From: a virus
Virus record (IMG/VR): IMGVR_UViG_3300027861_000012
Location: 96,380 to 160,379 of that record
Length of the DNA: 64,000 nt
Reading direction: 5' to 3' (one strand)
The position numbers and the translations under genes were made by a program. This document shows, in pieces, positions 1 to 31,907 of this stretch (position 1 is the stretch's first letter; each line of letters begins with the position of its first letter). The notes beneath the pieces are model-generated. The model saw only the letters and a program-made list of their open reading frames with translations. It was not told the origin of the DNA and did not search any database.

Positions 1-3000
1 CCAACTCCAACCTCGTATGTCATACTAAGCGTGTTGGAAGCAGATCGGACCCAAATTCCAAGTTGGGCAGCGGTGTCTGAAACTGACAGGTTATGGGTCA
101 CTGCTTCAACATTGACCAACACACGACTTGCAGAATCGCTTGGTGCGAGTGTGTCTGTGATAGATTTGCCAAGCACCATACCAAGATCAAGATCGTCTCC
201 GATCACAATCGTAGAACTCAATGTGGCGGTAACAATTTTGCCGCCATCACTGATATCAGTGACGATCAAAGTGGATGTGCCGGAATGCTGCACGATAGCT
301 ACTCTGTCTATGGCGTCATCCAGATCGATGGAACTCAGCAGTGATTTACCAAGGGTTGCCACTCTGCCTAATGAATCCGACAAATCAATCGTGCTGCTAA
401 GAGCCCGATCCCAGACTACCAACACGGTATCAGAATGTGTCAGGGCAAGTGTGCTCGTACTGAACCGTAAGGCCACATGAACGCGACTGGCCACGTTACT
501 AAGCGACAGTGTATCGGTTACATCCTTCTGTAGGGTGAAGGCTAGAGCAGCCTGACTGACTGCATCGATGATACTGGAAGCTGTTCGTGGCCATACCGTG
601 TCCTGTGTAGCTGATACTGATGGGACCAGTACCGAGGTTGCAGACTTACTGGCGACAATGTTTCTGTCACCAATACTGGTTAGGTCCAGTGTATGGCTGC
701 TAGCCTTTTGTACGGTGGCGATTCTGTCTGGTGTACCAGTCAAGACCAGTGTGTTAGACAGGTCTTTGGTCAGAACAAAGCCTGCCGACATATCGTCACT
801 GAGTAAAAGAGCACCACTTGCACTACGAGGCCACACAGTATCTTGACCAGCGGTGTCAGAGAGAGCCAAAGTAGCACTGACATCCTTCTGGAGTGTGGCA
901 ATACGGCTCGCAGCATCAGAGATGCTCAGTGTATGTGTTATGGAGTATGTGAACTCGGTCTCTTCGTAACCCGTACTGGTGAGGGTTATCGTTGAGGTCA
1001 AGCTTAGATTCAAAACGATCAACCGATCTGGGTCATCGTCTAGTACCAGTGTGTCAGAAGCAGCCAGATTCAAAACACTCGTCTCGCTGGCTGTGCCGGT
1101 GAGGCTAATTGTCGAAGAGGCGGTGTGACTGACTGTGGCAATACGGTCTGCTGAGTCATCAAGACTCATTGTATCCGTTGCGGGTCGCAGGTATATTGGT
1201 GTCTGAGCCGCTGTGCTCGTGAGGTCGATATCATCAGCACTAGATAGTGACCAAATTACTGTGAGGACGCTCAAGTCTGATAGGTCGAGTGTTGAAGATG
1301 CTGACGGTGATACGAGAGCCGTTCGTGCCAGTGTGTCATCCAAGTCGAGTGTTGAACTGGCGTCGCGCGGCCAGACAGTATCTTGTGTAGCAGTTCCAGA
1401 GATGTCCAAGGTTGAGCTACTGGCTAGCGGCCATGCCCAATTCACTTCCAGCAGGTCGGATATACTGAGTGTACTTGTGATGCTTTTGCCCAAGACGGCA
1501 AGTCGGTCAGCTTCGCTGTCGAGTACCAGTGTGTCTTGAAGTGATTTATTGAGGACCCAACCAGCATCCAGTACATGGCTCAAGCTAAGTGCATTCACAG
1601 CACTACGTACCCAGGTGGTGTCAAAGATTGCAGCTTGTGTTAGTGTAATGGTGTCGCTGAGGTCATAGGTGACGATGATGTTTCGGTCACCCGTGCTTGT
1701 CAAATCAATCTCTGTGGTGACTGGCCGAGCAAAGACAGCCAACTGGCTGGCGGTACTTGTCAAAACAACCGTGTCGGAGGCAGTTCGTGCTACTGTCTGC
1801 ACGAAGGATGCAACATCGCTGGCGCTGATGGTATCAGAGGTTGTGCGATTGAATACACCAGCATACGCGGATACAGACACCCAATCAATTGTACTGCTGC
1901 TGGCTCGTTGCAGGCTGTAACCCACATTCAAGTCATCGTCTAACGGAATGGCATGTGTTGGTGTTCGCAACCAGATGGTGGTCTCAACACAATTATCGGA
2001 GATAACCAGTGTGCCAGAACTGTCTGCCGACACAGCTTTCAGCAGATCAAGAGTATCCGATATGTCAATGGTGTTGGTTGCAGTCCGGCTTCCGATTCTA
2101 ATACGGGTCGCAATGTCACTACATACAATGGTTGATGACCCACTTAACTGGAGAATCCAAGTTGGGTCCAAATCATGGCTCAGATCAAGACTGTCGGAAT
2201 CGGATGTGCTGCGTACATGAGTTGTATCCCCGACACTCACAAACGTGATGGTACTGGACGGCCCGAGCGTTAGTATCCAATTCAAACCAACCACGTCTGA
2301 GACTGTGATAGTAGATGTTAGTGTGCGGGGGAATATCCCGGTGTAGTCCAGTGTGTCACTGACTGATATACCAGATGGGGCATTCAGAGTAATGATAAAT
2401 CCTGCTTCAGCCGTTGAAGTCCAGTCCAAAGAGGACGTACCAATCCCCTGGATGTAGGTCTCACCGGTAGCAGCATGTCGGAGCCGTAACGGAGACTGCA
2501 TACCTCGTGGGATGAAGTTTCTGAATGGGAAATAATCGATACCATGATACTCTTTGCCAAAGACACCGTGATGAATGGTGGTAGTGATCCCTGTAGAAAC
2601 AACCGTCTTCTTTACGTCACGTCCCGAGGTCCAATACAACGTATCGTTGTCCTCGTTGTAACACAGGTCATCGGGCAAATTGGCATCGGTGAGCACTGTG
2701 TCTCCTGAGCCATCAATGTTGGCAACATAGATGTCCCCACCTGAGATACCACGCCCAAAGAAGATGCGCTCATTCTGGCGGTCAATGCAAATTGCTTGTG
2801 GTAGGTTCCAACCTGTAATGAGATCAGTAACGTTACTGCCGTCATAGTCACAACGCTTCACGATGTGGGCACTATAGTCACAGAAGTACAACTGATTGTT
2901 GTAGGCGGCCAAACCGTAGGGTCGCACCACGTCATCAACAGTGGCTTCCAGAATCAAAGTGATGTTGGACCCATCCAAGTCCATTCGGTAGACTTTGTTG

Positions 3001-4274
3001 TTAGTGTCCGATTCATCTACAAAGTAGATGTAGTTCTCGTATGAATCAACACACAAGCTCAACAGCGATGAGTAGGCAGGGTCATCAAGGATAACTGTTT
3101 CCCCGGTACCATCCAAATTCCCTCTATGGATGGTGTTGTCTGTGATATCGACCCAATAAATCTCATACCGATTAACATGGATGTCGGCATCGGTTGGCTT
3201 GTTACCCGTATCAAACATCGCACGTCGATTGTTTCCGTCAAAGTCCATCCTAATACATTCGTCTTCAGACCACTCCATGACAAACAACCGCTCAGAAGCA
3301 TGGGGGTCAATCCACACCGATGTATCCTGAGTGAAGTCCAGATCATCTGATGGGTGGCGTGTATACACATCGTATCCGCCAGAATTCGTATGCTCGAATG
3401 CAAGGGTGTCATCTACATCAATGGTGTGGACCACCGTGCGTTCCCAGGCACGTTGTAATAGTTGATCCATATCGAGTGTGGAGACCACCGTCTGTTGGTA
3501 CACCAGCGTAGAGGGTTTGTACAGAATGGCCTTCCAACTCTTAGCCAAGCTGTCCTGATCTGAGTCACGGAGTTTTTCGTATCCGGTGCCATAGATAGAG
3601 ACCCGGTAGATATCTCCGTCTGCCTGATCGTAAGTAAAGTACAGATAGTCATCACCAGGATCGTATTCGAGCCGAATGACATTGACACCCGTGGTATCAA
3701 TATCGTACACTAAGGCATTGTTGCCGCCGTCCATGTCACAGACACGAAGCTGGTCACCATTCGAGTAGTAGATTTTGTCATTATCAATATCCACTGAGAC
3801 CGATGGTCCGTCTGTGGTGCCCGTGATACCGGTGACGATATTCGCCAGGTTGGTACCATCCAGGTCACATGTCCGGATGCTATTATTAGTCGAATCGCAG
3901 AGCACCAATTTACCCAACGCTGGGTGGATGCCCATTTCACTGATCCAGGCCAATCCTGAAGTCAAGACATCAGTTGCACCGGTGCCATCTAAGGCAGCCT
4001 TGCGAATCTTAGCCGGACTGTATTCGTACCAATAGACTTCATCCGCACCAGGATTCACTGTGATACCAACAGGACCAGCCGTACTTGTATCCAACCAGAC
4101 TTCGCTGTTGCCACCATCAAGATCACATCGCTTGATCTCTTGATTGGCATAATGTGTCCAGTAAATCTTGTCATTGGTGAGGTCTATCGCGGCATCCTGG
4201 CAGCCGTCTACACCACTGCTGAGAATCACAGCAGCATAGGCACTATCAGGTTTGAGGCGTAGAATCTTACCCAT
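1..4274 (-). CDS. Second giant repeat protein with beta-propellers (C-terminus outside window)
   Basis: An open frame starts at an ATG at 4274 and runs off the left edge without a stop (more than 1420 residues). I translated the beginning, the far end and several internal points by hand. The ATG follows an AAGGA ribosome site that lies in the last codons of the upstream giant gene. The first ~250 residues hold repeated blade motifs such as NDKIYWTHYA and IKRCDLDGG, typical of YWTD/NHL-type beta-propellers. A few 20-residue repeats follow, then a second propeller (about 3300-2570), then continuous 20-residue repeats like those of the neighbour (for example QDTVWPRSAS, RSASNTLSM). It is a paralogue of the 4277-19549 product. 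Probable role: tail-tip fibre or other virion surface fibre; this is inferred from position and repeat nature only. Confidence 0.85.
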   Translation of the reverse strand, partial: MGKILRLKPDSAYAAVILSSGVDGCQDAAIDLTNDKIYWTHYANQEIKRCDLDGGNSEVWLDTSTAGPVGITVNPGADEVYWYEYSPAKIRKAALDGTGATDVLTSGLAWISEMGIHPALGKLVLCDSTNNSIRTCDLDGTNLANIVTGITGTTDGPSVSVDIDNDKIYYSNGDQLRVCDMDGGNNALVYDIDTTGVNVIRLEYDPGDDYLYFTYDQADGDIYRVSIYGTGYEKLRDSDQDSLAKSWKAILYKPSTLVYQQTVVSTLDMDQLLQRAWERTVVHTIDVDDTLAFEHTNSGGYDVYTRHPSDDLDFTQDTSVWIDPHASERLFVMEWSEDECIRMDFDGNNRRAMFDTGNKPTDADIHVNRYEIYWVDITDNTIHRGNLDGTGETVILDDPAYSSLLSLCVDSYENYIYFVDESDTNNKVYRMDLDGSNITLILEATVDDVVRPYGLAAYNNQLYFCDYSAHIVKRCDYDGSNVTDLITGWNLPQAICIDRQNERIFFGRGISGGDIYVANIDGSGDTVLTDANLPDDLCYNEDNDTLYWTSGRDVKKTVVSTGITTTIHHGVFGKEYHGIDYFPFRNFIPRGMQSPLRLRHAATGETYIQGIGTSSLDWTSTAEAGFIITLNAPSGISVSDTLDYTGIFPRTLTSTITVSDVVGLNWILTLGPSSTITFVSVGDTTHVRSTSDSDSLDLSHDLDPTWILQLSGSSTIVCSDIATRIRIGSRTATNTIDISDTLDLLKAVSADSSGTLVISDNCVETTIWLRTPTHAIPLDDDLNVGYSLQRASSSTIDWVSVSAYAGVFNRTTSDTISASDVASFVQTVARTASDTVVLTSTASQLAVFARPVTTEIDLTSTGDRNIIVTYDLSDTITLTQAAIFDTTWVRSAVNALSLSHVLDAGWVLNKSLQDTLVLDSEADRLAVLGKSITSTLSISDLLEVNWAWPLASSSTLDISGTATQDTVWPRDASSTLDLDDTLARTALVSPSASSTLDLSDLSVLTVIWSLSSADDIDLTSTAAQTPIYLRPATDTMSLDDSADRIATVSHTASSTISLTGTASETSVLNLAASDTLVLDDDPDRLIVLNLSLTSTITLTSTGYEETEFTYSITHTLSISDAASRIATLQKDVSATLALSDTAGQDTVWPRSASGALLLSDDMSAGFVLTKDLSNTLVLTGTPDRIATVQKASSHTLDLTSIGDRNIVASKSATSVLVPSVSATQDTVWPRTASSIIDAVSQAALAFTLQKDVTDTLSLSNVASRVHVALRFSTSTLALTHSDTVLVVWDRALSSTIDLSDSLGRVATLGKSLLSSIDLDDAIDRVAIVQHSGTSTLIVTDISDGGKIVTATLSSTIVIGDDLDLGMVLGKSITDTLAPSDSASRVLVNVEAVTHNLSVSDTAAQLGIWVRSASNTLSMTYEVGV

Positions 4275-4276
4275 GA

Positions 4277-7200
4277 TTATTCCTTATCAATTACGTAGAG
4301 GCTACCGGACTCAGGCGGCTCAATGACAGCCGAGGCCGATGACGCTGGCACCAAAGTATCTTCTGCATCACCATCATATGTCCTTGGCCAGACACGGTGG
4401 GCCCAAGTCAGGTCATCCGAAGCTGACCGAGCAAAGGTCATTGAGCGGGTTGCAGTTTGTGTCAAGTCTCCGGTATTGTCTGCCGACTCGACTGAGGCCA
4501 GGTTGAATGTACTCTCCTGGGTTAGATCAACCACATTTTCGGTGACTCGTGGGTGTGTTGTGAAGTCGTCACCAGCATAAACGATACTGACGGCCATGTT
4601 GTCATCAAGCGTGAATGAAACCTCTGTGTCTTCAACGATAGAATCCCATGCACGACTCTGCCATGTGAGTGTATCATCAGAATCTCGGTTGTACACGCTA
4701 CTGGCCAGCGACAGGGCTTGACCAAGGGCGGCTGTCGATTCCAGGGCTTGAAGGGCCACAGTCGTTTCACCTGGGAGACTCGACAATGTGATGGTGTTGT
4801 CCCCAGTTCGATTCCTTGTGATGTTGAAGCTAGCCGCACTGGAGAGAGTCAGATCACTGGTACCACTGCGTTGGAGCGAATAACCAAGATTCAAATCGTC
4901 GGTCAATTCGATAGCGTTTGTCAGGTCACGAGCCCAAACAGTATCTTGTGTTGCCACATCGCTGGCAGCGATTTCGTGATCAACACTTCTTGGTGACACT
5001 ACGGCCTCGTTAGCACTGTCATCCATCACAAGGGTGTTCTCAGCATATCGGTCCCAAACTACATCGAAGACACTTGCATCTGACAGTATCAACGTGTTCG
5101 CAGCATTGCGGATAACTTCAACGACAATTATGTCGTCCAAATCAATGCTAGAACTTGACGCGGGACTGATGAAGTGTTCGTAGCTCAGCACTTCGTCTAG
5201 TGTCAACGTTGATTCGATAGACTTGTTAAGGATGCTGGTAAGATCAAGATCATCGTCTAGCGTCATGGTATGTGCAGCAAACCTACTGAAGATTGGCTGC
5301 TTGTCGCTAATACTGGTGAGCGTGAAAGTCGAAGACGCATCGCGGTCACGGAAAGTAATACTGGTAGCGACATCGCCAACAGTGAGATCAGTATCCAAAT
5401 CTCGCGTTAGTGTGTAACCAAGATTGAGTGCTTGGGCCAGATCAGTGGAATCCTCCCCGAATCTTGGTAACACTAACGTTTCACCACTGCTGTCGGATAG
5501 ATCCAGATCATCAGCAAGTGGTGGCCCCAGAACAAATAAGGTTGCCAACTCATCTGAAATTGTGGCAGCGTGTATGATTACTTCATTGAAATCAGTGGTC
5601 TCATAACCGATTGAATCCAGTTCAACTGTGGTGCTTCCGGCTTGCTGTGAAACGATATTTCGGTCTACAATAGAGACCAGTGTTAGGGTATTGTCGTGGG
5701 CCAAGGTTACAACAACGTTGCGGTCACCAATACTGGACAGATCAATTGCGTTACTGGCATACCGTAGATATACCATATCCGCGACGGCCAGACCAGACGC
5801 TGTCAGTGTATTGCTTAATGACTTACCAAGGGTTGCAATCCGTGTAGTGACATCACTTAGTGTAACAGCATTGGTAGCACTTCGGCCCAAGATGGAAGTT
5901 TCTGCACCTGTATCCGTGAGGTCAAGATCAGACTCACTCCATCGTTGCCTTACTGTAATGGCACCTACGGCTGTGTCCGCCAGGTCAATATCACTGGTAC
6001 TACCCTCAAGGGAGAGGAATGCCTCATCAACAACACTGGAGATGGTCAAGGTTGAAGTATCATCGGTTGTTCGGATTCGGTTTTGGGTGACGCTGTCGGA
6101 AAGATCAATGTTCGCGGTCACTTCTTTCAATGGTACAAAGACAACTGTGGATTCGTCACCCAGAGATAGCGAGACCGCAGTTGATCGTGGCCATACGGTG
6201 TCCTGCCCGGCAATGGCCGACAGGTCCAGAGTATCACTGCTGCTTCTGGGTGCCACATGTCCATAGACAAGTGAGTGTACGAAATCGAGATCACCTAGCA
6301 TCTGACGGGTTCTGGTGTAACCCGTGTATGGTGCAATGGCCAGACCCCATGGTCGTTGGTATTCGGTACCAGCCGACACTTGATTATGTGTATGAGGCGC
6401 AGTAATCTTGACACTGTGCAGCCCGATGTAGGTCCCGGCCGCAGCGTTGTCTTGGTAACAGACTGTATAGATCGAGTCGTTTACAGCGTTGAAGGCAATG
6501 TGCTCGAAGTGTCCGGACGGGATCGAAATCTCAGTAATCACCCATGCACTGGGCCCATCAACGTCGGCATAAAATGCCCGCGCGTAACCCGTGGAAAGTG
6601 ATTTGTACAACCAGAACAACCTACCATTGGTTTCGTCATAGTTCAGGTGAATCCAAGGTCTGGTCCCTGGGAAGTCGGTCAGATTACCAAGACGCACAAT
6701 TTCTGCGTTAGTATCCAAGTTCTTTTCAACGATGCGTCCGGTTGGGGATCTATCTGCGTACCACAATCTCCTGTTCGCACCATCACCTGCAAGATCGCTC
6801 GCATAGCCCGAGCCAAAATTCACGTCAGGATTCACGTTGTCCAAATCCCATATCGACCCATAACCGTTATTGAACAGAATAGCCGGAGCATGAATGGCAT
6901 ACATATTGTTGTTCTGTGAATCAACAAACGATCTACTGGCACGATAGACAGGCGGGTTGGGATACACGTAGAAGTTGGCACCGTTTAGATCGCATCCAAA
7001 CTCGTAGCCAAAGACATATGATCCGAAGTAAATACGATCATCAACAATGCCAAGATCCCAGGTATCGTTGGGATAGGCTTGTGACCCGGCTGGGTACGGA
7101 AGATCATTCAATTCAATTGCTGTTTCTTTACCGGTGAGGTCTGGCCTGAATTTCACAATTCGTGAGTGTAGCGAATCGCCTTCATAACCTTCACCTGTGT

Positions 7201-10200
7201 AGACTCTACCGTCGCCTTCGACATGCTCATCCAAGTCGTACAGAACAACGTCGGACAGAGTCAAACCCTGAGTAACTGTACGCCCGGCCGACCATAATGT
7301 ATTTGCATCACTATCCAGATCAAGGTCATTTTCACCCAACCGCAGTGGAATAGCTACGAGGTCTAGCTGGTCATCAAGCGGGATAGCTTGTTCCACTGGC
7401 TCGTATGAACCAAGGTAACCGAGAATTGTATCGTCGATATCAAGACCACTGGCGAGTGTTCGACCAAGTATGGCAATTCGATCCATCTCGTCAGTGACCG
7501 GGATGGTATGCTCAACAGTACGCGCCCATACAACATCGACACTGGCTGAATGCTCAGGTGTGAAGGAGTCGGCTGCCGACAGATGTATGATCCAGTCTTG
7601 TGGCCCGAGGGCAATACCTGTGTAGGAAGCGTCGTTGTCAATACGAATTATCTCTTGCGTCGGGAAGCTAGCATAGGCTTTGATACGCCGTACCTGGTGT
7701 GAATCCCCTTGGTGAGTATAGTAGATGTACTCATCCTCAAAGTTGTAGACCATATCCACAGCGTAGGTTGCAATGAAGGCGACCTGTGCCACATTGGAAC
7801 CATCTAAATCAGCCGACTTGATGTCCTGGTGCATCATGTCAGACCAGAACATTTTCTCGTTCACGGGGTCAATAGTAATGGCAGTGGGACCCGTGGGGTC
7901 TGTGTTTGTTTGCACCAGATTGGTCAAGTTTGACCCGGTTAATTCACATCGCTTGATGTAACCAGCACCGTTGTCAACAATGTACAGGTAACCGTTGGAA
8001 ACTTCCAAACCACGGACACGAGTTAATGACGTACCCGGAACAATTTTCTGGGGGTTGGAGCCATCGTAATTCATTCGCCAAATAGCTCGAATAGTTGAGT
8101 TGGTGCTATGCACGTAGGCAAAGACATGATCTGTGGCATCATTAACCGCCACGTTCATTACATTTGCATAGCCTGATGCCAGCATTTCCACATCGGTGCC
8201 GTCCAGGTTGGCACTCTTCAATGCCCCAGCACCACTGTATGTTTCGGCCCAGAAAATGCGTTCATCGTCTAAGGAGATTACTGCATCACCTGGGGTAAAC
8301 GGTACACCAGATTCAAACAAGTCCTTGAGGTGGCTGCCATCCAATGTGATGACACGGCAACGGTTGTCCTGGTTGTCCATGAGATGTAGGGCAAATGTAT
8401 TCGCGTTGGCATGGCCATGGACCAGCGTATGATCGAGAACCAGTGTACTCGTTGCTTCTGGCGTAAAGGTCTTCTGTGCAAAGTCACTCAATGCCACCAG
8501 AGTATCAGTTTCGCTTCGGCTAAAGATTGTCGTTTCCTGGGCCTCATGGTCCAGATCAAGGGTTGAGATAGCACTGCGGGGCCACACCACATAGCGTACT
8601 GCGGATTGGGTACTGGTAATTGAATCGGTAATTGATTGATTCGTGATAGCAGTACGATCCAAATCTTGCACGAGGACCAGAGTATCTCCATGTTCAACCT
8701 CGAAGGTGCGAGAAGTCCTGTACGATAGAGTCAGTGTGTCCTCAGCAGCCCGTAGTGCTACATGGATGGTACTCGCAGCATGGTCCAAATCAATGGAATC
8801 GGCAGTAGTCCGAATTGCCCAGAAAGTATCCTGAGCCGCTGTGGCCTCCAACACAAGTGTATCATCAAGGTCTTTGTTCAGTATCTGTTCCAGATCTAAT
8901 TCATCCGACAGCGTTAGTGGTGTTGGTGCATGGTATGAATACACCGCACTCAGGCTATGGTCCAGTGCCATGTTGTTCCAAGCCGCTCGTGGCCTGACAT
9001 GATAAAAGCTTGTGGTGTCATTCAGATCCACTGAATCGAAGTAGATGTAGGTACCTTCATCATAGGCTGATGTGTTACGCATCGTACTCAGGGACATGGT
9101 ATTCGTGTCAAGGGCATATACAGCATACTTACTAGCCAGATAGAGAATGTCACTTTCATGATCATAAACCATCTTCTCAACACCCTCATAACCGCCCTGA
9201 CCGGTCATGGTACCAACAAGTTGTAGGTTGTATGGGGCCGTCTTATTAACACGCCAGATGCGAGCATCCTGTGACGCACCGAAGTAGACGTAGTCATTGT
9301 TGTGGTCGAAAGCAATTGCATCATAGGTCTTGTTGATAGGCATGGCTACCACATGTGACCAATTGGTATACCCATTTCCGACCAACAAGTTATGGAAGGT
9401 ATGGGAACCAGTATCGCTACCAAAGGTCCAGAACAGACCTGTATTTGGATCACGTCGCAGACAGCTACCATACATGAAGACACCACCGGCTCCCAACATT
9501 TGGATGTGGTCGCCACCGTCTGACATACGCACGGTGTACATCGCCGAACAACCACCCTCTGGACAATGGCCACCATCAACTGTGAAGACCAGTCGTCCCA
9601 AACTGGGGATGATATCAAAGGTACTGTAACCACCAGCATGGTATGCCCACCACTCGCTCCAGGTACCATCGTTCAAATCAACAATCCCTACAGGGTCATT
9701 GCCATCCATGTCCCAACTGTTGATAACCTTGGGACCATCACTGGCACCATAACCATAGACACGATTCCCAACAGTATCGATCCGCAAATCCGAGTGCTTG
9801 GAGGTACCAAAGATGTGTTTGGTTTGGCCATACTCATTCATTCCCAGGATGCCATTAGCACCGCTGGAGACACCTAGCCACAACGGGCCGATAGTAACCT
9901 GGATGTCGTAGTAACTATAGCCGGAGAGGTGCAGCGTGTTGCTGGCAGCCAGATCAACCGGGAAATATACTGGAGCGTCAAGCTCAAGGGTATCGGTGGC
10001 ATCATAGGTGTAGGTGGACCCAGCCCGACTGGCGTCTTCTGTGAAGCCGATATCACTGGTGGCAAACAAGACACGGTTGATATCGAAGACAGCATCACTG
10101 GAAAGGTTGATGGTACTTGAAGCCGGTGTAGTCAGCAAGTAACCAAGATTGATATTCTGGGTCAAGTTCAGGTTGTCTTCAGCCGATTCAATATGGACCT

Positions 10201-13200
10201 TCTTGAGATCATGCTCAACGATGAGAAGGTTCGAGAGGGCTCTAACATAGACTGTCTCGCGGTTCGCATAATAGCCCCACATGATTGTCGAGTCAACAAA
10301 TTCGAGCGACAAGAAGTCTTCATGAGCATCAGCACTGAGGGTCAGGTTGGAGATGGCATCATGAGAGACCAAGGCGATGCGGTTTACATCGTCACTCAGA
10401 GACAATGTCCCAGTACCCAGTCGGTAGCTGTCGGTTTCTTCAATCGCAGTGTGCGAGAGGTCCATATCGGAGGTTGCTGAGACTTCTGTGACCAAGTAGA
10501 CGATTTGATCCAGGAACGTGAGGTTGGCTTCGATGTCGGCGGTGACAACGAAGCTGTAATCTTCAAGACTCTCAAGGACCAGGGTTGAAGTTTCTGCCCG
10601 TTCAAGAATAGCAACACGGTCAGCAACCTGTGATAGGTTGAGGGTGTGTTCAACGTCTTCAAGGAATGTTGGAATCGGAGCTTCATCAATTGCAAAGCCG
10701 TAAACGGTAGTTCGGTTGGTCGGCCGTGTAGCGTCTGGCCAGGTATGGACCACAGTACGATTGTATCCGTTCCAGTCAATTTTTTCAACATACCGACTCG
10801 AAGTGTCGCTGGATATAGAGTAGATGCAGTCATCATTGGGGTTGTAGGCAAAGTCTTTGATTTGATGTGGGTTCGGGTAGACAACCTCGATCTTAGTTTC
10901 TTCGGTATCGTCCTTATGAGCCTGATAGAAGGTACTGACGCCAGCTTGGTTGACCCACAATAGGCTCTCATGTGCTGGAACAAACTCCATATAGTATGGG
11001 TCCCCAGGTATCTCCATCCATAACGTCAGCCCTGAACCGTCTGTATTCATGCGCCAGATTTCTCCAGGCACGCCAGGATTGACAAACGTCGTTGCCCCGA
11101 TATACAGTTGCTGGTCTGCCGGGTCAATGGCGATTGAGTGCAGATTGTATGTACCCAACCCACCTGTGGAGGCGATTAGTGATTCATCGGTACCATCAAG
11201 ATTATTTTGGTACACGGCACCGAAGCCACCATTCTGGTGTGTATAATAAATCTTGTTATTGGCAGGGTCAACAGTAACATCAAGTATACCGCCAGGCCAC
11301 CCAGGTTCCAAATATGGAATCCAGGAACGAATTTCTGTGACGTTGCTGCCATCAAGATCGGCCCGCATGATTTTGTTCCGCAGATTGTCGGTCCAATACA
11401 TCTTATGATTGATGCCATCAATCACCATGTGCCAGCCACCACCTGAATTAAGGTCTGGATAAGGCGCGCCAATTTGGGTTGTGGCTACCACATAAGGGTC
11501 GGTTCCGTCTGCCTTCATCGAGAGGATTTCGTCATACAATTGATCTATCATATAGAGGCGGCCGTTTGGATCAAGGATACGTGTGACCGCCGCTGCATCA
11601 GACAATGGGAGGTAGTCGATAGGTGATTCTATTGTGGACAGGAATGCATCATCGTCCCATGTAACGGTATGACTGAGGGTATGACCCAGAACGGCAGTAC
11701 GATCACCGGTATCCGATGGCGTCAAGTCCTGGGTAATGCTCCGCTCGATGATACGCAATCCGGTGGCAGCATCTGTGAGATCAATGTCATCGGTTCCATA
11801 GTGGAACTTGACAGTGTTGTCGGCTGTGGCTTCATGGTCCAAGTCGGTGAGTTCACTGGCTGTGGTACCACCGGTAATCGGTAGTGCTTCAGCAAGCTGA
11901 CCTGGGAAGAGGTAATTGATCGCATTGCCAAATCGAACGGGCAGAACGTCAGCAGCATGATCAAGATCGATGGTATGGCTGAGAGCCCGTAAGGCCCAGA
12001 ATGTATCTTGTGTAGCTGTGTCATCCAGATCCATGGAGTGCGACATGGTCTTGTAGACGATGATAGTACGATCAGGGGTGCTAATCAGATCAAGATCATC
12101 GGTACTAGCACGATTCAAAACGCTAACCTCTGTGACCTCGTCAGAGAGGGTCAGTGTGTCAGTTATGTCTTTACCGAGTAGGAAAATGGTTTCCAGGGTG
12201 GCATCAAGATCAAGCGAGTCAGTAGCGGCTCGCGGTCGGATCATATTACCCACGAATATCTGGCTTAAATCCAGACTATGCGGCATCTCACGATCCAAGA
12301 CGTAATTGACATCCAATTGATCGTCGATTGCAACCGAGTCTCCGGCAGACCGTGGGAATACAGAATCCTGCTCGGCTGTATCATCCACAGGGATGTCGTC
12401 GGTCAACAGTTTACCCAACGAGACAATTCTGGCTAAATGGTGCCAGGTATCGAGTGGTGATTCGAGGCTCCGGGGTCGAACAGCATTCTGGGAGGCGGTT
12501 TGGTTAGGTTCCCAGATGGTGGTAGCATATCGATCCCAGACGCCAAGGAAAGTAACTGCGCTAGTGAGGTCGGTGGTGTCAGTTGGGTCACGTTGGAAGA
12601 CCATTAGTTCTTCCGCTGTGTCGCTAATAGGCACCAATGAATCGGTCAGTGATTTACCAAGAATTGCAACCCGGTCCATGGAGTCGCTCAAATCCAAAGA
12701 GTGGACGAGATGACGCAGAGATTCGGTTTCTTCCAGTACAGTATGACTCAGGTTGATTGTTTGTGTGAAGGATTTACCAAGGGTAGCAACTCGGCTGGCT
12801 ACATCCGAGAGGGTTGCTGTATTATCCGCACTTCGTGGGCGAAGGAAATTGGTATCTACTGTGCCAGAAACATCCAGAGTGTTTCCAAGGCTGTGGTCAA
12901 AGATTGCCAAGTATGAGGCTGAAGAAGATGGGTCCAATGTACCAGTTGCTGATCGGCTAACAACAAATACACGGGTTGCCGTGTCGTCCAAGTCCATTGT
13001 ATTTGTGGCTGTTCGCAGGTAGGCCCAAATATCATCCAACACCTGACTGACTATCAAAACGCTAGTCAGGTCTTTGGTAACCACAATGATTCGACCTACA
13101 ACCTGTGACAAATCAGGGGTAGATGTTGCACTTCTGGGTCGCACCATTGGGTAGACCAAGGTATGATCCAAATCAAGAGTATCATCACTGCTACGCTGGA

Positions 13201-16200
13201 GGATATAGCCAACATCGATTGCGTGCTCAAGCCCAACGGTGTTTTCAGAATCACGCGGGCGAATCAACGGATTTTCAATGTCTTGCCCCGCCAACAATAC
13301 GGAAACCAAGGTCTTGCCCAGGATGGCGGTACGGTCACCAACATGGGTAAGATCAATGGAGGTGTCGGGACTACGTGGGAAGACGGCTGTGTATGCGAGA
13401 GTATCGTCCAACGACATTGTGGTGTCAATTGAGCGATCAAAGATGGCAAGATATAGGGCCGTATGATCTGGGTCGATAGCATTGCTGCTACTACGAGCCC
13501 AGACCATAAGACCGATGAACTCATCCGTGAGGTTGAAATCACTACTGAATGATCGCCCATAGACACCATTGAATGCCAGGATGCTATTTAGTCCAACAGT
13601 ATTCTCAGAATCACGCGGACGAACGGCATCATAGTCAATGACCCCGGTGGGCTCCAATGTGTTGGTCGATTCACGCTGCAAGCTGTAAATGACATCAAGA
13701 TCGTGGTCCAGTGATGTGGTGACGCTAGCATCCAACGGGCGAGTGATATTCTGTGTAGTGGCATCACTGGGGCTCAGTGTGGAAGTCCCGTCATGACTCA
13801 CGAGTGCGATTCTATCAACGGTGTCTGATACATCAATTGAGTTTGAGCCGCTACGGGGCCACACAGTATCTTGTTCTGCTGTTGCCGATACCGTCATGAT
13901 GTTGGACAAGAGACGATCAAAGACTGCCAGGTACAGGGCTTGATCAGTTGAAGTCAGCGTGTCGCTGGAATTTCTTGGCCAAATGGTATCTTGTTCGGCA
14001 GACTGTGAAAGTGTCCCTGTATTCTCGGCTTGGAGTTGTAGGATTCCACTTCTGCTGGCAGTATCATCGGGATCGAGTGTATTACTGGCATATCGATCAA
14101 AGACCATTTGGCGCTCGGCAGTATGATCGGGCGTCAGTGTATGAGACAGGTCTTTGCCGACCACAATCAGGCGTGTTAGAAGATGACTGATGGTAACCGT
14201 GTGTGATTCAGTCCGGTCATAGGTGGCTACACGCCCCGCCGAGTCAGTGGCATCAATGGTGTTTGAAAGTACCCGATCAAAAATAGCCAGATACAAACCG
14301 CTATCACTGATGTCTAGCGATACGTCTGCTGATCGCCCAAAGATTCCCGTATAGACAAAGTCCTGACTGAGTGTAATCGTGACGGAAGGTTGCTTCCCGA
14401 GGACGGCAGTTCGGTCGCCCACACTATCAAATGTCAGGAGCAGTTCGGCATCGCGCGGCCACACCATATCCTGATCAGGGGTTGTGTCAAAGATCAAACC
14501 GCTGGTTAGCGTCTTTCCAAGGGTCGTGGTGCGGTCATAGTCATGGCTCAACACGATGGTGGATGTGCTGTCTAACGGCCGAACTGTGTCCTGCACATTG
14601 GTATCCGAGATATCCAGAGTATGATTCAAGGATTTCCCGAGGGTTGCAATCCGGTCACCCGTACCACTGAGGTCGAGTGTATCAACTGAATTTCGTGGCC
14701 AGACTGTATCCTGTTCCCCGGCATCTGACAGCGGAATGATGTGAGATGGTTGTTTCTGAAGCGTAGCAGTTCTATCAACAACATAATCCAAATCAATGGT
14801 AGACGAACTGCTTCGTGGCCAGATTGTATCCTGTTCGTTGCTGTCAGAAAGATCAAGAGTATGGCTCAAGGATTTCCCGAGGGTAGCAATCCGATCTCCA
14901 GTATCACTTAACGTGATAGTGTTGGTTGAACTCCTTGGCCAGATCGTATCTTGTTCAACTGAATCAGACAGGGTAAGCGTGTGTGAAGGTTGCTTCTGAA
15001 GCGTTGCGATTCGATCAACAACATCAGATAGTTCGAGTTCATCCAGAACTACAAAAGCCTCAAACACAGTATCTTGGGTTGCTATTGAGTCTAGTTCAAG
15101 AACACTGGTTGCAGACCGATTCAGGATGCTGGTTTCAGTAGCGGTGCTGGTCAGACTCAAAGTATCGGTGCTGTACCGATCAAAGAGCATGACACGGGAT
15201 ACCGTATCAGATAGGCTGATTGTATCCAAAAAGGCTCGACCGAGAATGGCAACACGGTCGCCAACATGGGTGAGATCAATATCGTGTGTAATATGACGCA
15301 ACCAGTCAGTATCCATTATGGCGGTACTGGTCCATGTCAATGACTGCGAGAGACCTTTACCAAGGGTAGCTGTTCTGTCACCAATATCGGTGGCTGCGAG
15401 CGTGCTGGTAGCGGATCGTGGCCAGATGGTATCTTGCTCGGCACTGATAGACCATGCGAGACTGCTGGTAGCATAACGATCCCAAAGTATGACACGGATG
15501 ACACTGTCACTCAGTGTCAGATCGTCGGTTTGATTCTTAGTCACTTGGATGAGGACATCCGGAGTCTGAGCGATGAGCACCCCAGAAGATGCGCTGCGTG
15601 GCCAGATTGTATCCTGTTCAACATCGCTGTCGATGGTAAGGGTATCAGTGAGTTCTTTGCCAAGTGTGGCAATGCGATCCACAATACTCGTGAGGTCCAG
15701 TGTATTGGCAGTATTTCGTGGCCAGATCGTATCTTGTTCTGCATCACTGTCAATGGTGAGCGTATGGGATTGATCTTTCTGCAACTCAACGATATGCTCA
15801 AGTCCGTGCCCCACACCGATGGTATTGGTAGCTGATCGTGGCCATACGGTATCTTGCTCGGCACCACTATCGATTGCTACTGTGTGGGTTAGTTCTTTAC
15901 CCAGGGTTGCAATTCGGTCTACTGTGCCAGTGAGATCAAGAGTGCTGTCAGCGGTACGGGGCCATACTGTATCTTGTGTCACAATACTGCTTAGTGTAAG
16001 CGTATGGGACTCATCTTTCTGCACAGTGATGATTCGATCAAGTTCATGATCCAACCCCATGGTATCGGCTGATGATCGTGGCCAAATTGTATCTTGCTCG
16101 ACTGTGGAATCCCATGTGAGTGTATGGGTCGGAGCACGATTCAAAATAGCAACTCGGTCTCCAAGGCTAGTCAGATTAAGCGTGTTTTCAGCATATCTGT

Positions 16201-19200
16201 CCCAGACCGTCAACTGAGTGATCACCTCAGATAGTGTCAGAGTATTACTCAGAGACCTGACAAATATGGCCAGATACAAGGCTTCATCGGTTGCAGCCAA
16301 TGTGTTATCCGCCGACCGATTGAAATCCCCGGTGTATGTGAATTCTTGGGAGACAACCAGCGTGTGCGACAAGTCTTTCCCAAGGAACAGTGTTGCATGA
16401 TTGCTGTGATCTAGGTCTAGGGTATGGTCGAGTGACCGTGGGAATAGGGCCACGTATTCAACAAGGTGGTCCAGTTTGTTCCATGTAAGGTCATCGGAGT
16501 GGACCGCCAGGTTAAGGACGATATTGCGATGCAGAAGATGTTCCACGCCAATATCACCATCAGATTGACGAACGAAAACCAACTCCCGTTCTGCCAGATC
16601 ATCCAGTGTGGTCTCGGTGCTTATGGGACGTAGGAACAGAGCCACACGCTCAGTCTCATCACCAAGACTCAGTGTAACATCAGGCAGTCGAACAAACACA
16701 CTGTCTTGAACCACGAGGTGGTCCAAAATGATATTGTCAACGAAACCCCGTTCCAAGATGTAATTGGTATGCAACAGGTGCGAGAGATCGATTGTGCTGG
16801 AGGCATCTCTTGGCCGTACAGCATCATGATCTGGTGTGCTGATTAGCTCCAGAGTTTGTTCAATATCTTTCTGAAGAATGACATTGAGATCAAGAAGCTC
16901 GCTAAGTGTCAGGGTATGTTCGACGCTACGTGGCCGCACCATGTAACCGTCAGCCTGATGATCCAAATCTGGTTCTGAATCTGTGGGCCGCTGTGCATAA
17001 ACCAACACTTCCACGATGGCATTGGCAACAATTTCGCTGGCCGCCGAGCGTGGACGATCAGAGTCATGCATGACAGCATCTGTAATCGTGATACTGTGTG
17101 CAATTGATCGGTCACGAACCGCAAGGTATGTTGCCAGGTCATTGGTGTCAAGATCACTGACCAAGTATCGTGTTCGGTCAGTAAAGAATTCTGCCGCTTG
17201 TGTGACCGTAAACAGATTATTGGTTGCATACCTATCAAAGACAGCATCGAATGTGACGACATCGTACATGGTAGACAGCATGTTGTAGGCTGTCATTGAA
17301 TAGATGTCAGCAAGTTCGGCTTCGAGTTCAACACTGGCTGTCAAACCATTTCGATGATCCCGCACGATGGGGTCCTGTGGTGAGACAATGACACCGCGCC
17401 ACTCGCGGTTTTCCCAATCTAGTAATCCAACCTCTTTACCCAGGGTTTGACGACAGAAATCTAGGAAGTTCTGTGCCTCATCTTCTGCCAGTCCGTTGAA
17501 TTGGAACGTCAAATGCTGAATCTTGGGCCAAATCTGGTCGGCAAAAACAATCAGTGTCCCGCCACGGCTCTCTCGTTTGATGCGGTGGAACGCCAGGCTG
17601 TCCTTATTGTCAAACTCTGGCCCACGTAAATGAATTGATAGTGTGGGATCGACAGCAGGGTAGAAAAAGGTGACACCACTGGAATCACCAATCACCGGTT
17701 GGCCTGTTTTTGGTGGTGATGGGGCATCAGGGTCAGTTGTTGATCCAACAAACGGTGAGTAATTATGCAGTGTTGAATCTTGAAGATTGACAAACGCCAT
17801 CGTTTGAGTCAACAAAAGATTAGTCGTAACCTCAAACGGAGCCCGCAGAATAATTCGATCAACTTCATGTAAAAGACTCAGTGTGTCACTGGCTCGCTCT
17901 GTGGTGAGTCCTCTCGCCTCATGACTGAGAGTCAAATACGAGGTTGCCGATTCTGCAATGCTTAGCTGAGCGTAATCTCCAAGATCGATGGTATTGGTAG
18001 CCGAAGCTGACGTACCCGTAGACAATGCCAGGGCCGCAGAAGCCTCACTGGTGAACCAAATGTTTTGGGTACGAATTGGAAGTGTGCCCAAAGATATGGT
18101 GTATTCGGCCGCGTGAGTTAGCTCGTAAAGACGTTCCAGATTATACTGGGTGGTCAATGGGTCATAGACTTGTACCAGCGGCCCAAGAAACTCTGATTCA
18201 GCCGAGACATGACGTGGATATCGAACATCCTCGGCATGACTCAATGAGAGGATATTACTGGCAGACACTTGCCGGATACTGGGATCAACCTGTTCGCTAA
18301 ACGACAGTGTGGACTCACAGTTGCCAATAAACGGGCGACCAACATATGCAGTCTGAACCAGGGTCAGAAAACCGGTTTCGGTTCCTGGGTACTTCGGGTA
18401 GACCAGATAGACAATGTAGTCCCAGTTGTCCAACACCGATTCGGCGTACAAACTGATCCAGGATATTCGAGCCGTCTGGCTAAGATTAAGCGAGTCGCTG
18501 GCATCGCCATGCCATGGAACTGGCGTATAGGGACCATCGACAAATTGAATCTCACTCAAGGCGTCCACAACGTGCCAAGTATGTTTTGCACGCCCAACCA
18601 GATACATCAGGTCATGAGTCATGCTCTCATTGAACGGCTGGGTGACATCATGGTCATGACTAAGATTCAATTGGCTGATGACTGGCGCAATATACCAGTC
18701 TCCCACAGCGTCGGTATTCAGAACTATATCATCCTGTGCCGAGAGACTCCAGGGTCTGACAACACTGACCACATCATTAAGGGTCAGGGTGTCCGCCACT
18801 GGAAGCACATCAGTCGCTAGGATTGAGGAAAAGGTGATGGTGTGTTCTTCAGAACGGTACCAAGGTCGAATGACATTGAGATCATCATTGAGATCAAGAT
18901 CATCTGATGCGTCACCGAAACGCAAGTGATGCCTGGAGGCGTCCGTCATGGACGAGAGATCATCGGTAGCATTGATATACCACGGCCGAGTAGTAGTGGC
19001 TACTGATGTGAGGTCCAGGTTGTTGATAGCATACTCAAAGAGCCAGTTATGTTCCGGCAAGCTGCCAAGAACAAGACTGTTACTGGCCGAGAGTTGGAAG
19101 ATAGTCTGACGCGATGCATCATTCAGAATCAGTTCGTTGGAAGCATCGCGTGTGATGCGACCAAAGGCCACATTTATGTCTTGAGTGAGCGTTTCAGACA

Positions 19201-19549
19201 GGTGGGAATGTGGAACCGTATTGAGAAGATCCCAAGAAGCATGGAGCACTTCCATGCTCAAACCTGTCATGCGGATGCGACCGCTACCGGGTTTACCTAA
19301 AACCTCGATACGCTGCTGGGACAGCCTAAGATACCCTGGATCGGGTAGGCCAAGAACATCCAGATGTTGTGTGGGTACAATCAAATCACCAGGATCGGAT
19401 TGGCCCAGTACCTCGATGTGTTGCTGCGCAGTACGAATATCACCTGGGTCTGATTGACCCATGGCAAGAATCGACTGCATAGTGACTTGTAACTCGGATG
19501 GTATTTCAGCAAATACCAAGACCGATTGTTTCGTTACACGAATCGACAT
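4277..19549 (-). CDS. Giant 5090-residue tail protein of 20-residue repeats with four beta-propellers
   Basis: One uninterrupted frame of 5090 codons; its ATG shares a base with the upstream TAA stop (TAATG). Residues 1-85 carry short repeats with GQSDPGD and EVLG motifs. From ~85 the chain is mostly tandem 20-residue units with consensus like NTLDLSDTGDRIATLGK alternating with HTLTLSDSVEQDTIWPR. By length arithmetic that is roughly 180 units. At about 593-750 a different domain (DSSGVTFFYP to LTASVELEAEL, with LLDWENREWRGVIV) resembles tail-distal/minor-tail domains. Four propeller-like insertions lie near residues 2658-2955, 3218-3510, 3716-3986 and 4113-4413, with motifs such as NHKMYWTDN, NKIMRADLDGSN and EKMFWSDM. 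Position after tape measure and LamG proteins suggests a tail-tip or side-fibre component for host adsorption. The regular alternating hydrophobics suggest a beta-solenoid or extended beta fibre. The last codons KE-stop (AAGGAATAA) form the ribosome site of the next gene. Confidence 0.9.
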   Translation of the reverse strand: MSIRVTKQSVLVFAEIPSELQVTMQSILAMGQSDPGDIRTAQQHIEVLGQSDPGDLIVPTQHLDVLGLPDPGYLRLSQQRIEVLGKPGSGRIRMTGLSMEVLHASWDLLNTVPHSHLSETLTQDINVAFGRITRDASNELILNDASRQTIFQLSASNSLVLGSLPEHNWLFEYAINNLDLTSVATTTRPWYINATDDLSSMTDASRHHLRFGDASDDLDLNDDLNVIRPWYRSEEHTITFSSILATDVLPVADTLTLNDVVSVVRPWSLSAQDDIVLNTDAVGDWYIAPVISQLNLSHDHDVTQPFNESMTHDLMYLVGRAKHTWHVVDALSEIQFVDGPYTPVPWHGDASDSLNLSQTARISWISLYAESVLDNWDYIVYLVYPKYPGTETGFLTLVQTAYVGRPFIGNCESTLSFSEQVDPSIRQVSASNILSLSHAEDVRYPRHVSAESEFLGPLVQVYDPLTTQYNLERLYELTHAAEYTISLGTLPIRTQNIWFTSEASAALALSTGTSASATNTIDLGDYAQLSIAESATSYLTLSHEARGLTTERASDTLSLLHEVDRIILRAPFEVTTNLLLTQTMAFVNLQDSTLHNYSPFVGSTTDPDAPSPPKTGQPVIGDSSGVTFFYPAVDPTLSIHLRGPEFDNKDSLAFHRIKRESRGGTLIVFADQIWPKIQHLTFQFNGLAEDEAQNFLDFCRQTLGKEVGLLDWENREWRGVIVSPQDPIVRDHRNGLTASVELEAELADIYSMTAYNMLSTMYDVVTFDAVFDRYATNNLFTVTQAAEFFTDRTRYLVSDLDTNDLATYLAVRDRSIAHSITITDAVMHDSDRPRSAASEIVANAIVEVLVYAQRPTDSEPDLDHQADGYMVRPRSVEHTLTLSELLDLNVILQKDIEQTLELISTPDHDAVRPRDASSTIDLSHLLHTNYILERGFVDNIILDHLVVQDSVFVRLPDVTLSLGDETERVALFLRPISTETTLDDLAERELVFVRQSDGDIGVEHLLHRNIVLNLAVHSDDLTWNKLDHLVEYVALFPRSLDHTLDLDHSNHATLFLGKDLSHTLVVSQEFTYTGDFNRSADNTLAATDEALYLAIFVRSLSNTLTLSEVITQLTVWDRYAENTLNLTSLGDRVAILNRAPTHTLTWDSTVEQDTIWPRSSADTMGLDHELDRIITVQKDESHTLTLSSIVTQDTVWPRTADSTLDLTGTVDRIATLGKELTHTVAIDSGAEQDTVWPRSATNTIGVGHGLEHIVELQKDQSHTLTIDSDAEQDTIWPRNTANTLDLTSIVDRIATLGKELTDTLTIDSDVEQDTIWPRSASSGVLIAQTPDVLIQVTKNQTDDLTLSDSVIRVILWDRYATSSLAWSISAEQDTIWPRSATSTLAATDIGDRTATLGKGLSQSLTWTSTAIMDTDWLRHITHDIDLTHVGDRVAILGRAFLDTISLSDTVSRVMLFDRYSTDTLSLTSTATETSILNRSATSVLELDSIATQDTVFEAFVVLDELELSDVVDRIATLQKQPSHTLTLSDSVEQDTIWPRSSTNTITLSDTGDRIATLGKSLSHTLDLSDSNEQDTIWPRSSSSTIDLDYVVDRTATLQKQPSHIIPLSDAGEQDTVWPRNSVDTLDLSGTGDRIATLGKSLNHTLDISDTNVQDTVRPLDSTSTIVLSHDYDRTTTLGKTLTSGLIFDTTPDQDMVWPRDAELLLTFDSVGDRTAVLGKQPSVTITLSQDFVYTGIFGRSADVSLDISDSGLYLAIFDRVLSNTIDATDSAGRVATYDRTESHTVTISHLLTRLIVVGKDLSHTLTPDHTAERQMVFDRYASNTLDPDDTASRSGILQLQAENTGTLSQSAEQDTIWPRNSSDTLTSTDQALYLAVFDRLLSNIMTVSATAEQDTVWPRSGSNSIDVSDTVDRIALVSHDGTSTLSPSDATTQNITRPLDASVTTSLDHDLDVIYSLQRESTNTLEPTGVIDYDAVRPRDSENTVGLNSILAFNGVYGRSFSSDFNLTDEFIGLMVWARSSSNAIDPDHTALYLAIFDRSIDTTMSLDDTLAYTAVFPRSPDTSIDLTHVGDRTAILGKTLVSVLLAGQDIENPLIRPRDSENTVGLEHAIDVGYILQRSSDDTLDLDHTLVYPMVRPRSATSTPDLSQVVGRIIVVTKDLTSVLIVSQVLDDIWAYLRTATNTMDLDDTATRVFVVSRSATGTLDPSSSASYLAIFDHSLGNTLDVSGTVDTNFLRPRSADNTATLSDVASRVATLGKSFTQTINLSHTVLEETESLRHLVHSLDLSDSMDRVAILGKSLTDSLVPISDTAEELMVFQRDPTDTTDLTSAVTFLGVWDRYATTIWEPNQTASQNAVRPRSLESPLDTWHHLARIVSLGKLLTDDIPVDDTAEQDSVFPRSAGDSVAIDDQLDVNYVLDREMPHSLDLSQIFVGNMIRPRAATDSLDLDATLETIFLLGKDITDTLTLSDEVTEVSVLNRASTDDLDLISTPDRTIIVYKTMSHSMDLDDTATQDTFWALRALSHTIDLDHAADVLPVRFGNAINYLFPGQLAEALPITGGTTASELTDLDHEATADNTVKFHYGTDDIDLTDAATGLRIIERSITQDLTPSDTGDRTAVLGHTLSHTVTWDDDAFLSTIESPIDYLPLSDAAAVTRILDPNGRLYMIDQLYDEILSMKADGTDPYVVATTQIGAPYPDLNSGGGWHMVIDGINHKMYWTDNLRNKIMRADLDGSNVTEIRSWIPYLEPGWPGGILDVTVDPANNKIYYTHQNGGFGAVYQNNLDGTDESLIASTGGLGTYNLHSIAIDPADQQLYIGATTFVNPGVPGEIWRMNTDGSGLTLWMEIPGDPYYMEFVPAHESLLWVNQAGVSTFYQAHKDDTEETKIEVVYPNPHQIKDFAYNPNDDCIYSISSDTSSRYVEKIDWNGYNRTVVHTWPDATRPTNRTTVYGFAIDEAPIPTFLEDVEHTLNLSQVADRVAILERAETSTLVLESLEDYSFVVTADIEANLTFLDQIVYLVTEVSATSDMDLSHTAIEETDSYRLGTGTLSLSDDVNRIALVSHDAISNLTLSADAHEDFLSLEFVDSTIMWGYYANRETVYVRALSNLLIVEHDLKKVHIESAEDNLNLTQNINLGYLLTTPASSTINLSSDAVFDINRVLFATSDIGFTEDASRAGSTYTYDATDTLELDAPVYFPVDLAASNTLHLSGYSYYDIQVTIGPLWLGVSSGANGILGMNEYGQTKHIFGTSKHSDLRIDTVGNRVYGYGASDGPKVINSWDMDGNDPVGIVDLNDGTWSEWWAYHAGGYSTFDIIPSLGRLVFTVDGGHCPEGGCSAMYTVRMSDGGDHIQMLGAGGVFMYGSCLRRDPNTGLFWTFGSDTGSHTFHNLLVGNGYTNWSHVVAMPINKTYDAIAFDHNNDYVYFGASQDARIWRVNKTAPYNLQLVGTMTGQGGYEGVEKMVYDHESDILYLASKYAVYALDTNTMSLSTMRNTSAYDEGTYIYFDSVDLNDTTSFYHVRPRAAWNNMALDHSLSAVYSYHAPTPLTLSDELDLEQILNKDLDDTLVLEATAAQDTFWAIRTTADSIDLDHAASTIHVALRAAEDTLTLSYRTSRTFEVEHGDTLVLVQDLDRTAITNQSITDSITSTQSAVRYVVWPRSAISTLDLDHEAQETTIFSRSETDTLVALSDFAQKTFTPEATSTLVLDHTLVHGHANANTFALHLMDNQDNRCRVITLDGSHLKDLFESGVPFTPGDAVISLDDERIFWAETYSGAGALKSANLDGTDVEMLASGYANVMNVAVNDATDHVFAYVHSTNSTIRAIWRMNYDGSNPQKIVPGTSLTRVRGLEVSNGYLYIVDNGAGYIKRCELTGSNLTNLVQTNTDPTGPTAITIDPVNEKMFWSDMMHQDIKSADLDGSNVAQVAFIATYAVDMVYNFEDEYIYYTHQGDSHQVRRIKAYASFPTQEIIRIDNDASYTGIALGPQDWIIHLSAADSFTPEHSASVDVVWARTVEHTIPVTDEMDRIAILGRTLASGLDIDDTILGYLGSYEPVEQAIPLDDQLDLVAIPLRLGENDLDLDSDANTLWSAGRTVTQGLTLSDVVLYDLDEHVEGDGRVYTGEGYEGDSLHSRIVKFRPDLTGKETAIELNDLPYPAGSQAYPNDTWDLGIVDDRIYFGSYVFGYEFGCDLNGANFYVYPNPPVYRASRSFVDSQNNNMYAIHAPAILFNNGYGSIWDLDNVNPDVNFGSGYASDLAGDGANRRLWYADRSPTGRIVEKNLDTNAEIVRLGNLTDFPGTRPWIHLNYDETNGRLFWLYKSLSTGYARAFYADVDGPSAWVITEISIPSGHFEHIAFNAVNDSIYTVCYQDNAAAGTYIGLHSVKITAPHTHNQVSAGTEYQRPWGLAIAPYTGYTRTRQMLGDLDFVHSLVYGHVAPRSSSDTLDLSAIAGQDTVWPRSTAVSLSLGDESTVVFVPLKEVTANIDLSDSVTQNRIRTTDDTSTLTISSVVDEAFLSLEGSTSDIDLADTAVGAITVRQRWSESDLDLTDTGAETSILGRSATNAVTLSDVTTRIATLGKSLSNTLTASGLAVADMVYLRYASNAIDLSSIGDRNVVVTLAHDNTLTLVSIVDRNIVSQQAGSTTVELDSIGYETTDFNEVIIHAATISDELATLFVLGPPLADDLDLSDSSGETLVLPRFGEDSTDLAQALNLGYTLTRDLDTDLTVGDVATSITFRDRDASSTFTLTSISDKQPIFSRFAAHTMTLDDDLDLTSILNKSIESTLTLDEVLSYEHFISPASSSSIDLDDIIVVEVIRNAANTLILSDASVFDVVWDRYAENTLVMDDSANEAVVSPRSVDHEIAASDVATQDTVWARDLTNAIELTDDLNLGYSLQRSGTSDLTLSSAASFNITRNRTGDNTITLSSLPGETTVALQALESTAALGQALSLASSVYNRDSDDTLTWQSRAWDSIVEDTEVSFTLDDNMAVSIVYAGDDFTTHPRVTENVVDLTQESTFNLASVESADNTGDLTQTATRSMTFARSASDDLTWAHRVWPRTYDGDAEDTLVPASSASAVIEPPESGSLYVIDKE

Positions 19550-21632: not shown

Positions 21633-21642
21633 GGTGTGCTCC

Positions 21643-31241: not shown

Positions 31242-31907
31242 TTATTCCACACGCCTGATTCTTAGTCTACAACCACTGGCGGGATACCGCCATGCTAATG
31301 ATCCTGATGTACGCTGGGCGACCACAGAAATTTCGTCTTCGTTTACAACGTCCAATGAAGATCGGCCCATCACCACGGATTGCACTTCACCCGCGTGTAA
31401 TACCGTGCCACGTAAGGTTCCGGGGACGAATACCCCATTCTTTTCTAGCCACATCTCGATTCCTGATATCCCTGATCCACTGTCTGCCGCGACACTGACT
31501 TCAGCATGGATATCAATTGCCCCATCAAAATTTATGTCCACATGTGTACTGGATGGGGACAACGCCATACAACAACTCTCAATCGATGTGACATTCAGCG
31601 GACGGACTGCCATCACGCCTGTAGTATATGCGTCACTATCAGCAGTGTTATAGGCTTCAAATCGAGGTCGGGTATTGAGTCGGTCTTGAATCCAAAGTTC
31701 CAAACCTTCAACCGGAACTAGGGTCGGGGTTGTGTCATAGACTTCAAGGTCGCCATCTACCAGGGCGGTTTCGATATCGAGTGACAAGCGAATCCGATGC
31801 AGATCATCGGGCTCATCAAGATCGAGGGCCTCAGCAATGGCAAGCACGACCCCGAAATCAGGGACATCAAGAGCCGCACCGCTTGCATTTTTCAGGGTTC
31901 CGTACAT
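31242..31907 (-). CDS. Surface protein of the tandem array, swapped C-terminal domain
   Basis: 221 residues, TGATG overlap with the upstream member. The N-terminal ~80 residues follow the same plan as its neighbours (MYGTLKNASG, ALVDGDLEVYD, VEGLELWIQDRL). The C-terminal half differs: INFDGAIDIHAEVSVAADSG, GIEMWLEKNGVFVPGTLRG and VVNEDEISVVAQRTSG look like a C1q/TNF-like jelly-roll of the kind seen in phage capsid and tail decorations. It is therefore probably a domain-swapped last member of the array. Confidence 0.8.
   Translation of the reverse strand: MYGTLKNASGAALDVPDFGVVLAIAEALDLDEPDDLHRIRLSLDIETALVDGDLEVYDTTPTLVPVEGLELWIQDRLNTRPRFEAYNTADSDAYTTGVMAVRPLNVTSIESCCMALSPSSTHVDINFDGAIDIHAEVSVAADSGSGISGIEMWLEKNGVFVPGTLRGTVLHAGEVQSVVMGRSSLDVVNEDEISVVAQRTSGSLAWRYPASGCRLRIRRVE

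Follow-up and report, generated by a model that had tools for sequence, protein, structure and literature searches.

Layout of the locus

The phage record (IMG/VR) holds 177,656 bases, and the window, meaning the whole stretch of 64,000 nucleotides that was analysed, covers genome positions 96380-160379. The gene order is terminase-portal-capsid-tape measure-phrog_2448-A-B-C-D, in which A and B are two giant genes on the minus strand. The tape measure protein (23435..27751, minus strand, assigned by PHROG) sets A and B in the tail module, and three tandem phrog_2448 proteins (19549..22719, minus strand, likewise from PHROG) are encoded upstream of A. B is located between the tape measure and the hub genes, which is the place of a tail fibre or receptor-binding protein. 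A related phage, represented by a 128,458-base record from another metagenome, carries syntenic A, B, C and D of 4,895, 3,617, 781 and 2,765 aa.

Giant A (4277..19549, minus strand; 5,090 aa), as delimited by sequence, blade HMM and repeat scoring, harbors an N-terminal tail-protein core, 20-residue repeats and at least three propellers. The conserved core (about aa 640-770; 17240..17632, minus strand) is homologous to the C-terminal domain of the single tail protein of relatives. On the same strand, the blade HMM places propeller P1 at aa 2630-2885 (10895..11662) and P3 at aa 3735-3990 (7580..8347), with a degenerate, weakly scoring propeller-like P2 (aa 3180-3460; 9170..10012; blade HMM and tree) between them.

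Giant B begins 2 nt after the stop of A, a layout repeated in the related phage, and is preceded by a Shine-Dalgarno-like AAGGA (4281..4285, minus strand) within the end of A; an upstream start is impossible, as an in-frame stop lies 12 bases before the ATG. The window holds its N-terminal 1,424 codons (1..4274, minus strand; open frame 3-4274), and the frame that the sequence-only reading had described as open for more than 1420 codons and leaving the window belongs to a real gene. No stop or frameshift is found near the window edge; the frame continues leftward for about 6.5 kb and closes with a normal stop at genome position 89839, which is 6,541 bases to the left of the first window base, giving a complete protein of 3,604 aa. 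The last 1,141 codons, the stop and the next genes read the same in an independent contig, which has 99.97% identity over the part of the gene region that it shares. The possibility that B is an assembly duplicate of 4277-19549 was discarded, as A and B share almost no DNA: only two stretches match, one of 43 bp at 81% and one of 23 bp at 96%, and the longest common word is 17 bases.

Several neighbouring genes were recorded in passing. C and D (genome 80271-89854) encode LamG domains and beta-helix-like repeats, and D carries three further YWTD propellers at its C-terminus. Between capsid and tape measure there is a tandem set of five paralogous genes, each of about 220 aa (window 31242-34540, minus strand). 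The related phage may have fewer copies, since two pairs among the five share a best match there. A 333-aa protein with a twin-arginine-like signal (TRRDFLK) adjoins the terminase gene (window 45596-46597) and is 78% identical in the related phage.

Domains of B and the YWTD fold

B is composed of propeller P1 (residues 6-262), propeller P2 (325-590), an array of 20-residue repeats (613-1734), propeller P3 (1768-2020), further repeats (2032-2251) and about 1,300 residues that read as beta-helix-like and appear similar to C and D. P1 (3489..4259, minus strand; blade HMM, lead-in test, phmmer to LRP2/LDLR) and P2 (2505..3302, minus strand; Pfam, blade HMM) are the two propellers noticed at first near the N-terminus, and both are seen in the translation; the total is nonetheless three, the third being located beyond the window. 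All three are six-bladed and of YWTD type. The blade profile has no hits in shuffled sequence, Pfam reports DUF5050 well above its cut-off and PF00058 (Ldl_recept_b) slightly below it, and phmmer against PDB chains matches B to LRP2, LRP4, LRP6 and LDLR with total E values down to 6e-48. In an AlphaFold model of residues 1591-2110, P3 has a pLDDT of about 80-93, and Foldseek relates it to LRP6 (E 8e-17), nidogen (TM 0.85, rmsd 2.0) and LDLR. By its six blades, YWTD-like motif and matching fold, this is the YWTD (Ldl_recept_b) domain.

B thus shares motif, blade number and fold with the propellers of LDLR, LRP2, LRP4, LRP6 and nidogen, and LRP2 likewise carries several propellers on one giant chain. 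The phage propellers differ from those of LDLR, the LRPs and nidogen in being spaced by 20-residue repeats and encoded in a tail operon, with the first propeller of B split across two genes. A Pfam scan of the full protein detects no LDL-A or EGF-like module, so that B does not belong to the LDL-receptor protein family. Animal-receptor-type propellers are hence placed in what is probably a phage attachment organ.

The repeat that follows the first two propellers, as originally reported, has the consensus S-[SDN]-T-L-x-L-S-D-x-A-x-R-x-A-V-L-P-R-S-A. Scored units number 63 in B and 131 in A, against 0.15-0.3 in shuffles (0.15 for B), and the autocorrelation has maxima at 20 and 40. Repeat scoring assigns 52 units to the main array of B (in-window part 3..2438, minus strand), in which 48 unit positions at 613-1553 keep one unbroken register, as they do in the B orthologue. 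Between A and the related A, the indels of at least 10 residues measure 12, 19, 20, 20, 40, 40, 40 and 40, mostly whole units, and the A-type tail proteins of relatives show the 20-residue periodicity as a family-wide feature. The modelled unit has two strands, at low confidence (pLDDT 61), and Foldseek against the PDB gives no match below E 0.1. A few units resembling the repeat by eye (SANSTLALDH...NTLGLSDAAL), below the scoring threshold, are present in a 180-aa protein adjoining the capsid gene (window 35934-36476).

Nothing similar to the propellers or repeats of B, or to the tail hub, was found among 50,697 phage records; a search with one protein returned no propeller relatives, and PF00058 matches none of nine related records but equally none of the control genomes, so that this negative carries no weight. 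No paper on YWTD propellers in phages was found in a partial library. In an apparently unrelated viral contig (L208, IMGVR_UViG_3300018080_000222, positions 8120-18274), YWTD propellers do occur in proteins of 1,049 and 1,869 aa, the latter with a repeat of another kind, ASGDIPLFIGGY. The YWTD module has therefore either been acquired by phage-like genes on more than one occasion or passed from one such gene to another.

Propellers of other kinds are known from phage adhesins. The receptor-binding protein Gp45 of the Staphylococcus siphophage phi11 has beta-propeller heads (PMC4901313); for putative phage receptor-binding proteins, the only further propellers that the same paper names are PRD1 P2 and PhiKZ gp131C. 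Gp45 is unlike B in that its propeller is five-bladed and of another kind, and the protein is a homotrimer with a helical stem, far smaller and unsplit. The endosialidase tailspike of phage K1F (PMC12632334) is a phage adhesin that combines a beta-propeller with a beta-helix stalk, in which it resembles B, but its propeller is catalytic and of another family, and its size is ordinary. B has no Pfam or PHROG match to a trimerisation domain or an intramolecular or fibre chaperone domain, which weakens the case for a fibre only a little, since many known fibres also do without one.

A propeller divided between A and B

In the lead-in comparison, all ten of the other propeller starts open with an xLYVxD-type strand, interpreted here as the YWTD-motif strand of blade 1. 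P1 of B lacks this first motif strand because B starts just past it. The C-terminus of A reads ...SGSLYVIDKE, and its LYVIDKE supplies the missing strand in register. With a profile built from the ten intact lead-ins, the start of B alone scores 40.7 bits from profile position 17 onwards and the tail of A alone covers positions 4-13; when both are abutted, the match extends from position 4 to 73 and reaches 52.3 bits. In the related phage, joining raises the score from 35.1 to 46.9 bits. None of 300 control peptides attains the joined score (mean 40.6, SD 0.86, maximum 45.2).

The two sides of this junction also hold the longest identical runs of the two proteins, in a comparison of the only two independent genomes that carry it. 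The longest identical run between the A proteins is formed by the C-terminal 17 aa (4280..4330, minus strand; AVIEPPESGSLYVIDKE), which include the strand absent from P1 of B and in which nine codons differ synonymously with no amino acid change; the longest between the B proteins is 22 aa, residues 8-29. Both runs flank the A|B junction and together form one blade region. Part of this conservation may serve translation, as the nucleotides right around the start of B are identical in both phages; a role in translation does not account for the synonymous changes in the tail of A. We infer from this pattern that purifying selection acts on the A-B interface, and that strand complementation would hold A and B together non-covalently in a host-attachment fibre.

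The proposed model is as follows. A would be anchored at the tail tip via its N-terminal tail-protein core, and its C-terminal strand would complete the open first propeller of B, giving an end-to-end, non-covalent joint. The 20-residue repeats would act as beta-rich spacers of fixed length, and the heads that bind ligands would be the YWTD propellers and, in C and D, the LamG domains. That B follows A as second segment in a very long fibre by which this tailed phage attaches to its host, its first propeller closed by the C-terminal strand of A, is a reading on which we stand evenly balanced, and its presence in the virion and binding of a receptor are to be understood in the same conditional sense. 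That the split propeller is a fibre joint completed in trans, so that separately made subunits would build a fibre of about 8,700 residues, or as many as about 11,900 if C and D are counted, is put forward more tentatively, at slightly less than even confidence. The hetero-oligomeric A-B fibre suggested on first reading gains from the split propeller at the gene boundary a backing that is specific, though indirect.

In chaperone-usher pili, donor-strand complementation has one subunit give the strand missing from the next. The putative A-B joint is similar in principle, with a propeller in place of the Ig-like fold of the pili, and no homology is claimed. Strand complementation of a propeller is a testable assembly mechanism, and it could explain fibres longer than one polypeptide. 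No comparable split scores at B|C. At C|D, the last beta-helix unit position of C is 25 and the first of D is 31, yet repeat unit borders are arbitrary and a split is not claimed there.

It could be argued that A and B work independently, each as a fibre or adhesin of its own on one tail, the split being a relic of an ancestral single gene and P1 folding without the strand. Their start signals are separate, their residues abut without a gap, as a former fusion predicts, and propellers can tolerate shifted chain ends. A relic tail should drift, however, and the last 17 residues of A are instead the longest identical run, in spite of nine synonymous codon differences, which makes this explanation rather unlikely.

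Descent of the giants and their place in the tail

Between the two phages, capsid, portal and terminase are 78-89% identical (capsid 89%), the hub 62% and the giants 41-56%. The two B proteins can be aligned in full, at 54% identity and with every indel shorter than 10 residues, and the two A proteins at 45% identity. A tree built from 21 propellers recovers each of the nine tested pairs as orthologues, with support of 97-100%, so that A and B were separate and distinct already in the common ancestor of both phages, and B is no recent copy of A.

These relationships bear on the first interpretation of the pair. A second giant does stand beside the first in the tail (fibre) module and shares its propellers and 20-residue repeats, as had been noted; a simple duplication of a fibre gene, also proposed then, did not hold up. 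It would make B a diverged tandem duplicate of A and the two proteins paralogous subunits of one fibre, in agreement with their adjacency, with the repeats and YWTD propellers common to both, and with the weakly supported placement of B P2 and A P3 as sisters (82/71). Against it, every tested propeller pairs with its orthologue rather than a paralogue, local identity between A and B is about 25%, and comparison of their unit order reveals neither the same domain order nor the whole-length similarity of tandem duplicates: the ancestral tail-protein core is present in A and absent from B, and the beta-helix-like third is present in B and absent from A. We regard this origin as improbable, and the domain maps contradict duplication of a whole gene. 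Any duplication would have been module-wise and older than the split of the two phages, as the weakly supported B P2/A P3 grouping suggests.

The tail block around the A-type protein and the hub is found again in more than 80 contigs, with the conserved order tape measure - p8123 - phrog_2448-like (where present) - A-type protein - g137 - hub. In more than 60 other relatives, one tail protein of ordinary size, about 350-1,350 aa (median 726 aa, range 347-1,349, n=64 complete), fills the slot; it shares homology with the first ~780 residues of A and mostly ends with the core found at about 640-770 in giant A. At 64 of 77 A-core loci, the next conserved tail gene stands alone between the A-core gene and the hub. 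The remainder of A together with B, C and D (about 11,000 aa) is an insertion between the A core and g137, by which a conserved slot has grown from one ordinary protein. Nine of the 77 loci hold additional, smaller sets of fibre-like genes here, without YWTD-like motifs, and one relative has F5/8C and LamG domains inside its A-type protein; position and content suggest an accessory host-recognition slot. PHROG 'tail protein' labels on the A-type relatives were given no weight, being single members probably matched via accessory domains, and PDB searches with hub or A-core profiles yielded no significant match. The g137 protein (L013 15889-16302) is itself weakly similar to the A-core proteins of relatives (cf. 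window 17240-17632; E about 1e-4), and g137 and the A core may be ancient copies of one tail domain. B was also considered as a target of a diversity-generating retroelement, which was ruled out by the lack of a reverse transcriptase (RVT_1) in the record, which may be incomplete.

In other organisms YWTD proteins function at the cell surface, and B might be a secreted or host-surface protein outside the virion, for example in receptor masking. This is very improbable, as B lies inside a contiguous tail operon, between A with its tail core and the hub genes, in two phages, and relatives carry fibre-like genes in its slot. Fusion of A and B via programmed frameshifting, with a complete P1 in a minority product, would suit the in-register halves of P1 at adjoining gene ends, but is hardly credible with no canonical slippery heptamer seen by eye at the junction and a Shine-Dalgarno-like site ahead of the B ATG in both phages.

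Planctomycetes are rich in giant genes, and most giant genes elsewhere encode surface proteins or PKS/NRPS (PMC5177795); the planctomycete genes are cellular, whereas A-D are phage-borne. Relatives of the tail hub occur in Planctomycetota and Pirellulales MAGs and one Anaerolinea MAG, and distant ones in 6 more of 392 planctomycete genomes, so that the host group is probably Planctomycetes. At the edge of the record (genome 1-1617), a partial gene starts with MRSLRIEPLESRNLLS, a motif known from planctomycete surface proteins, which hints at host DNA or at a gene captured from the host.
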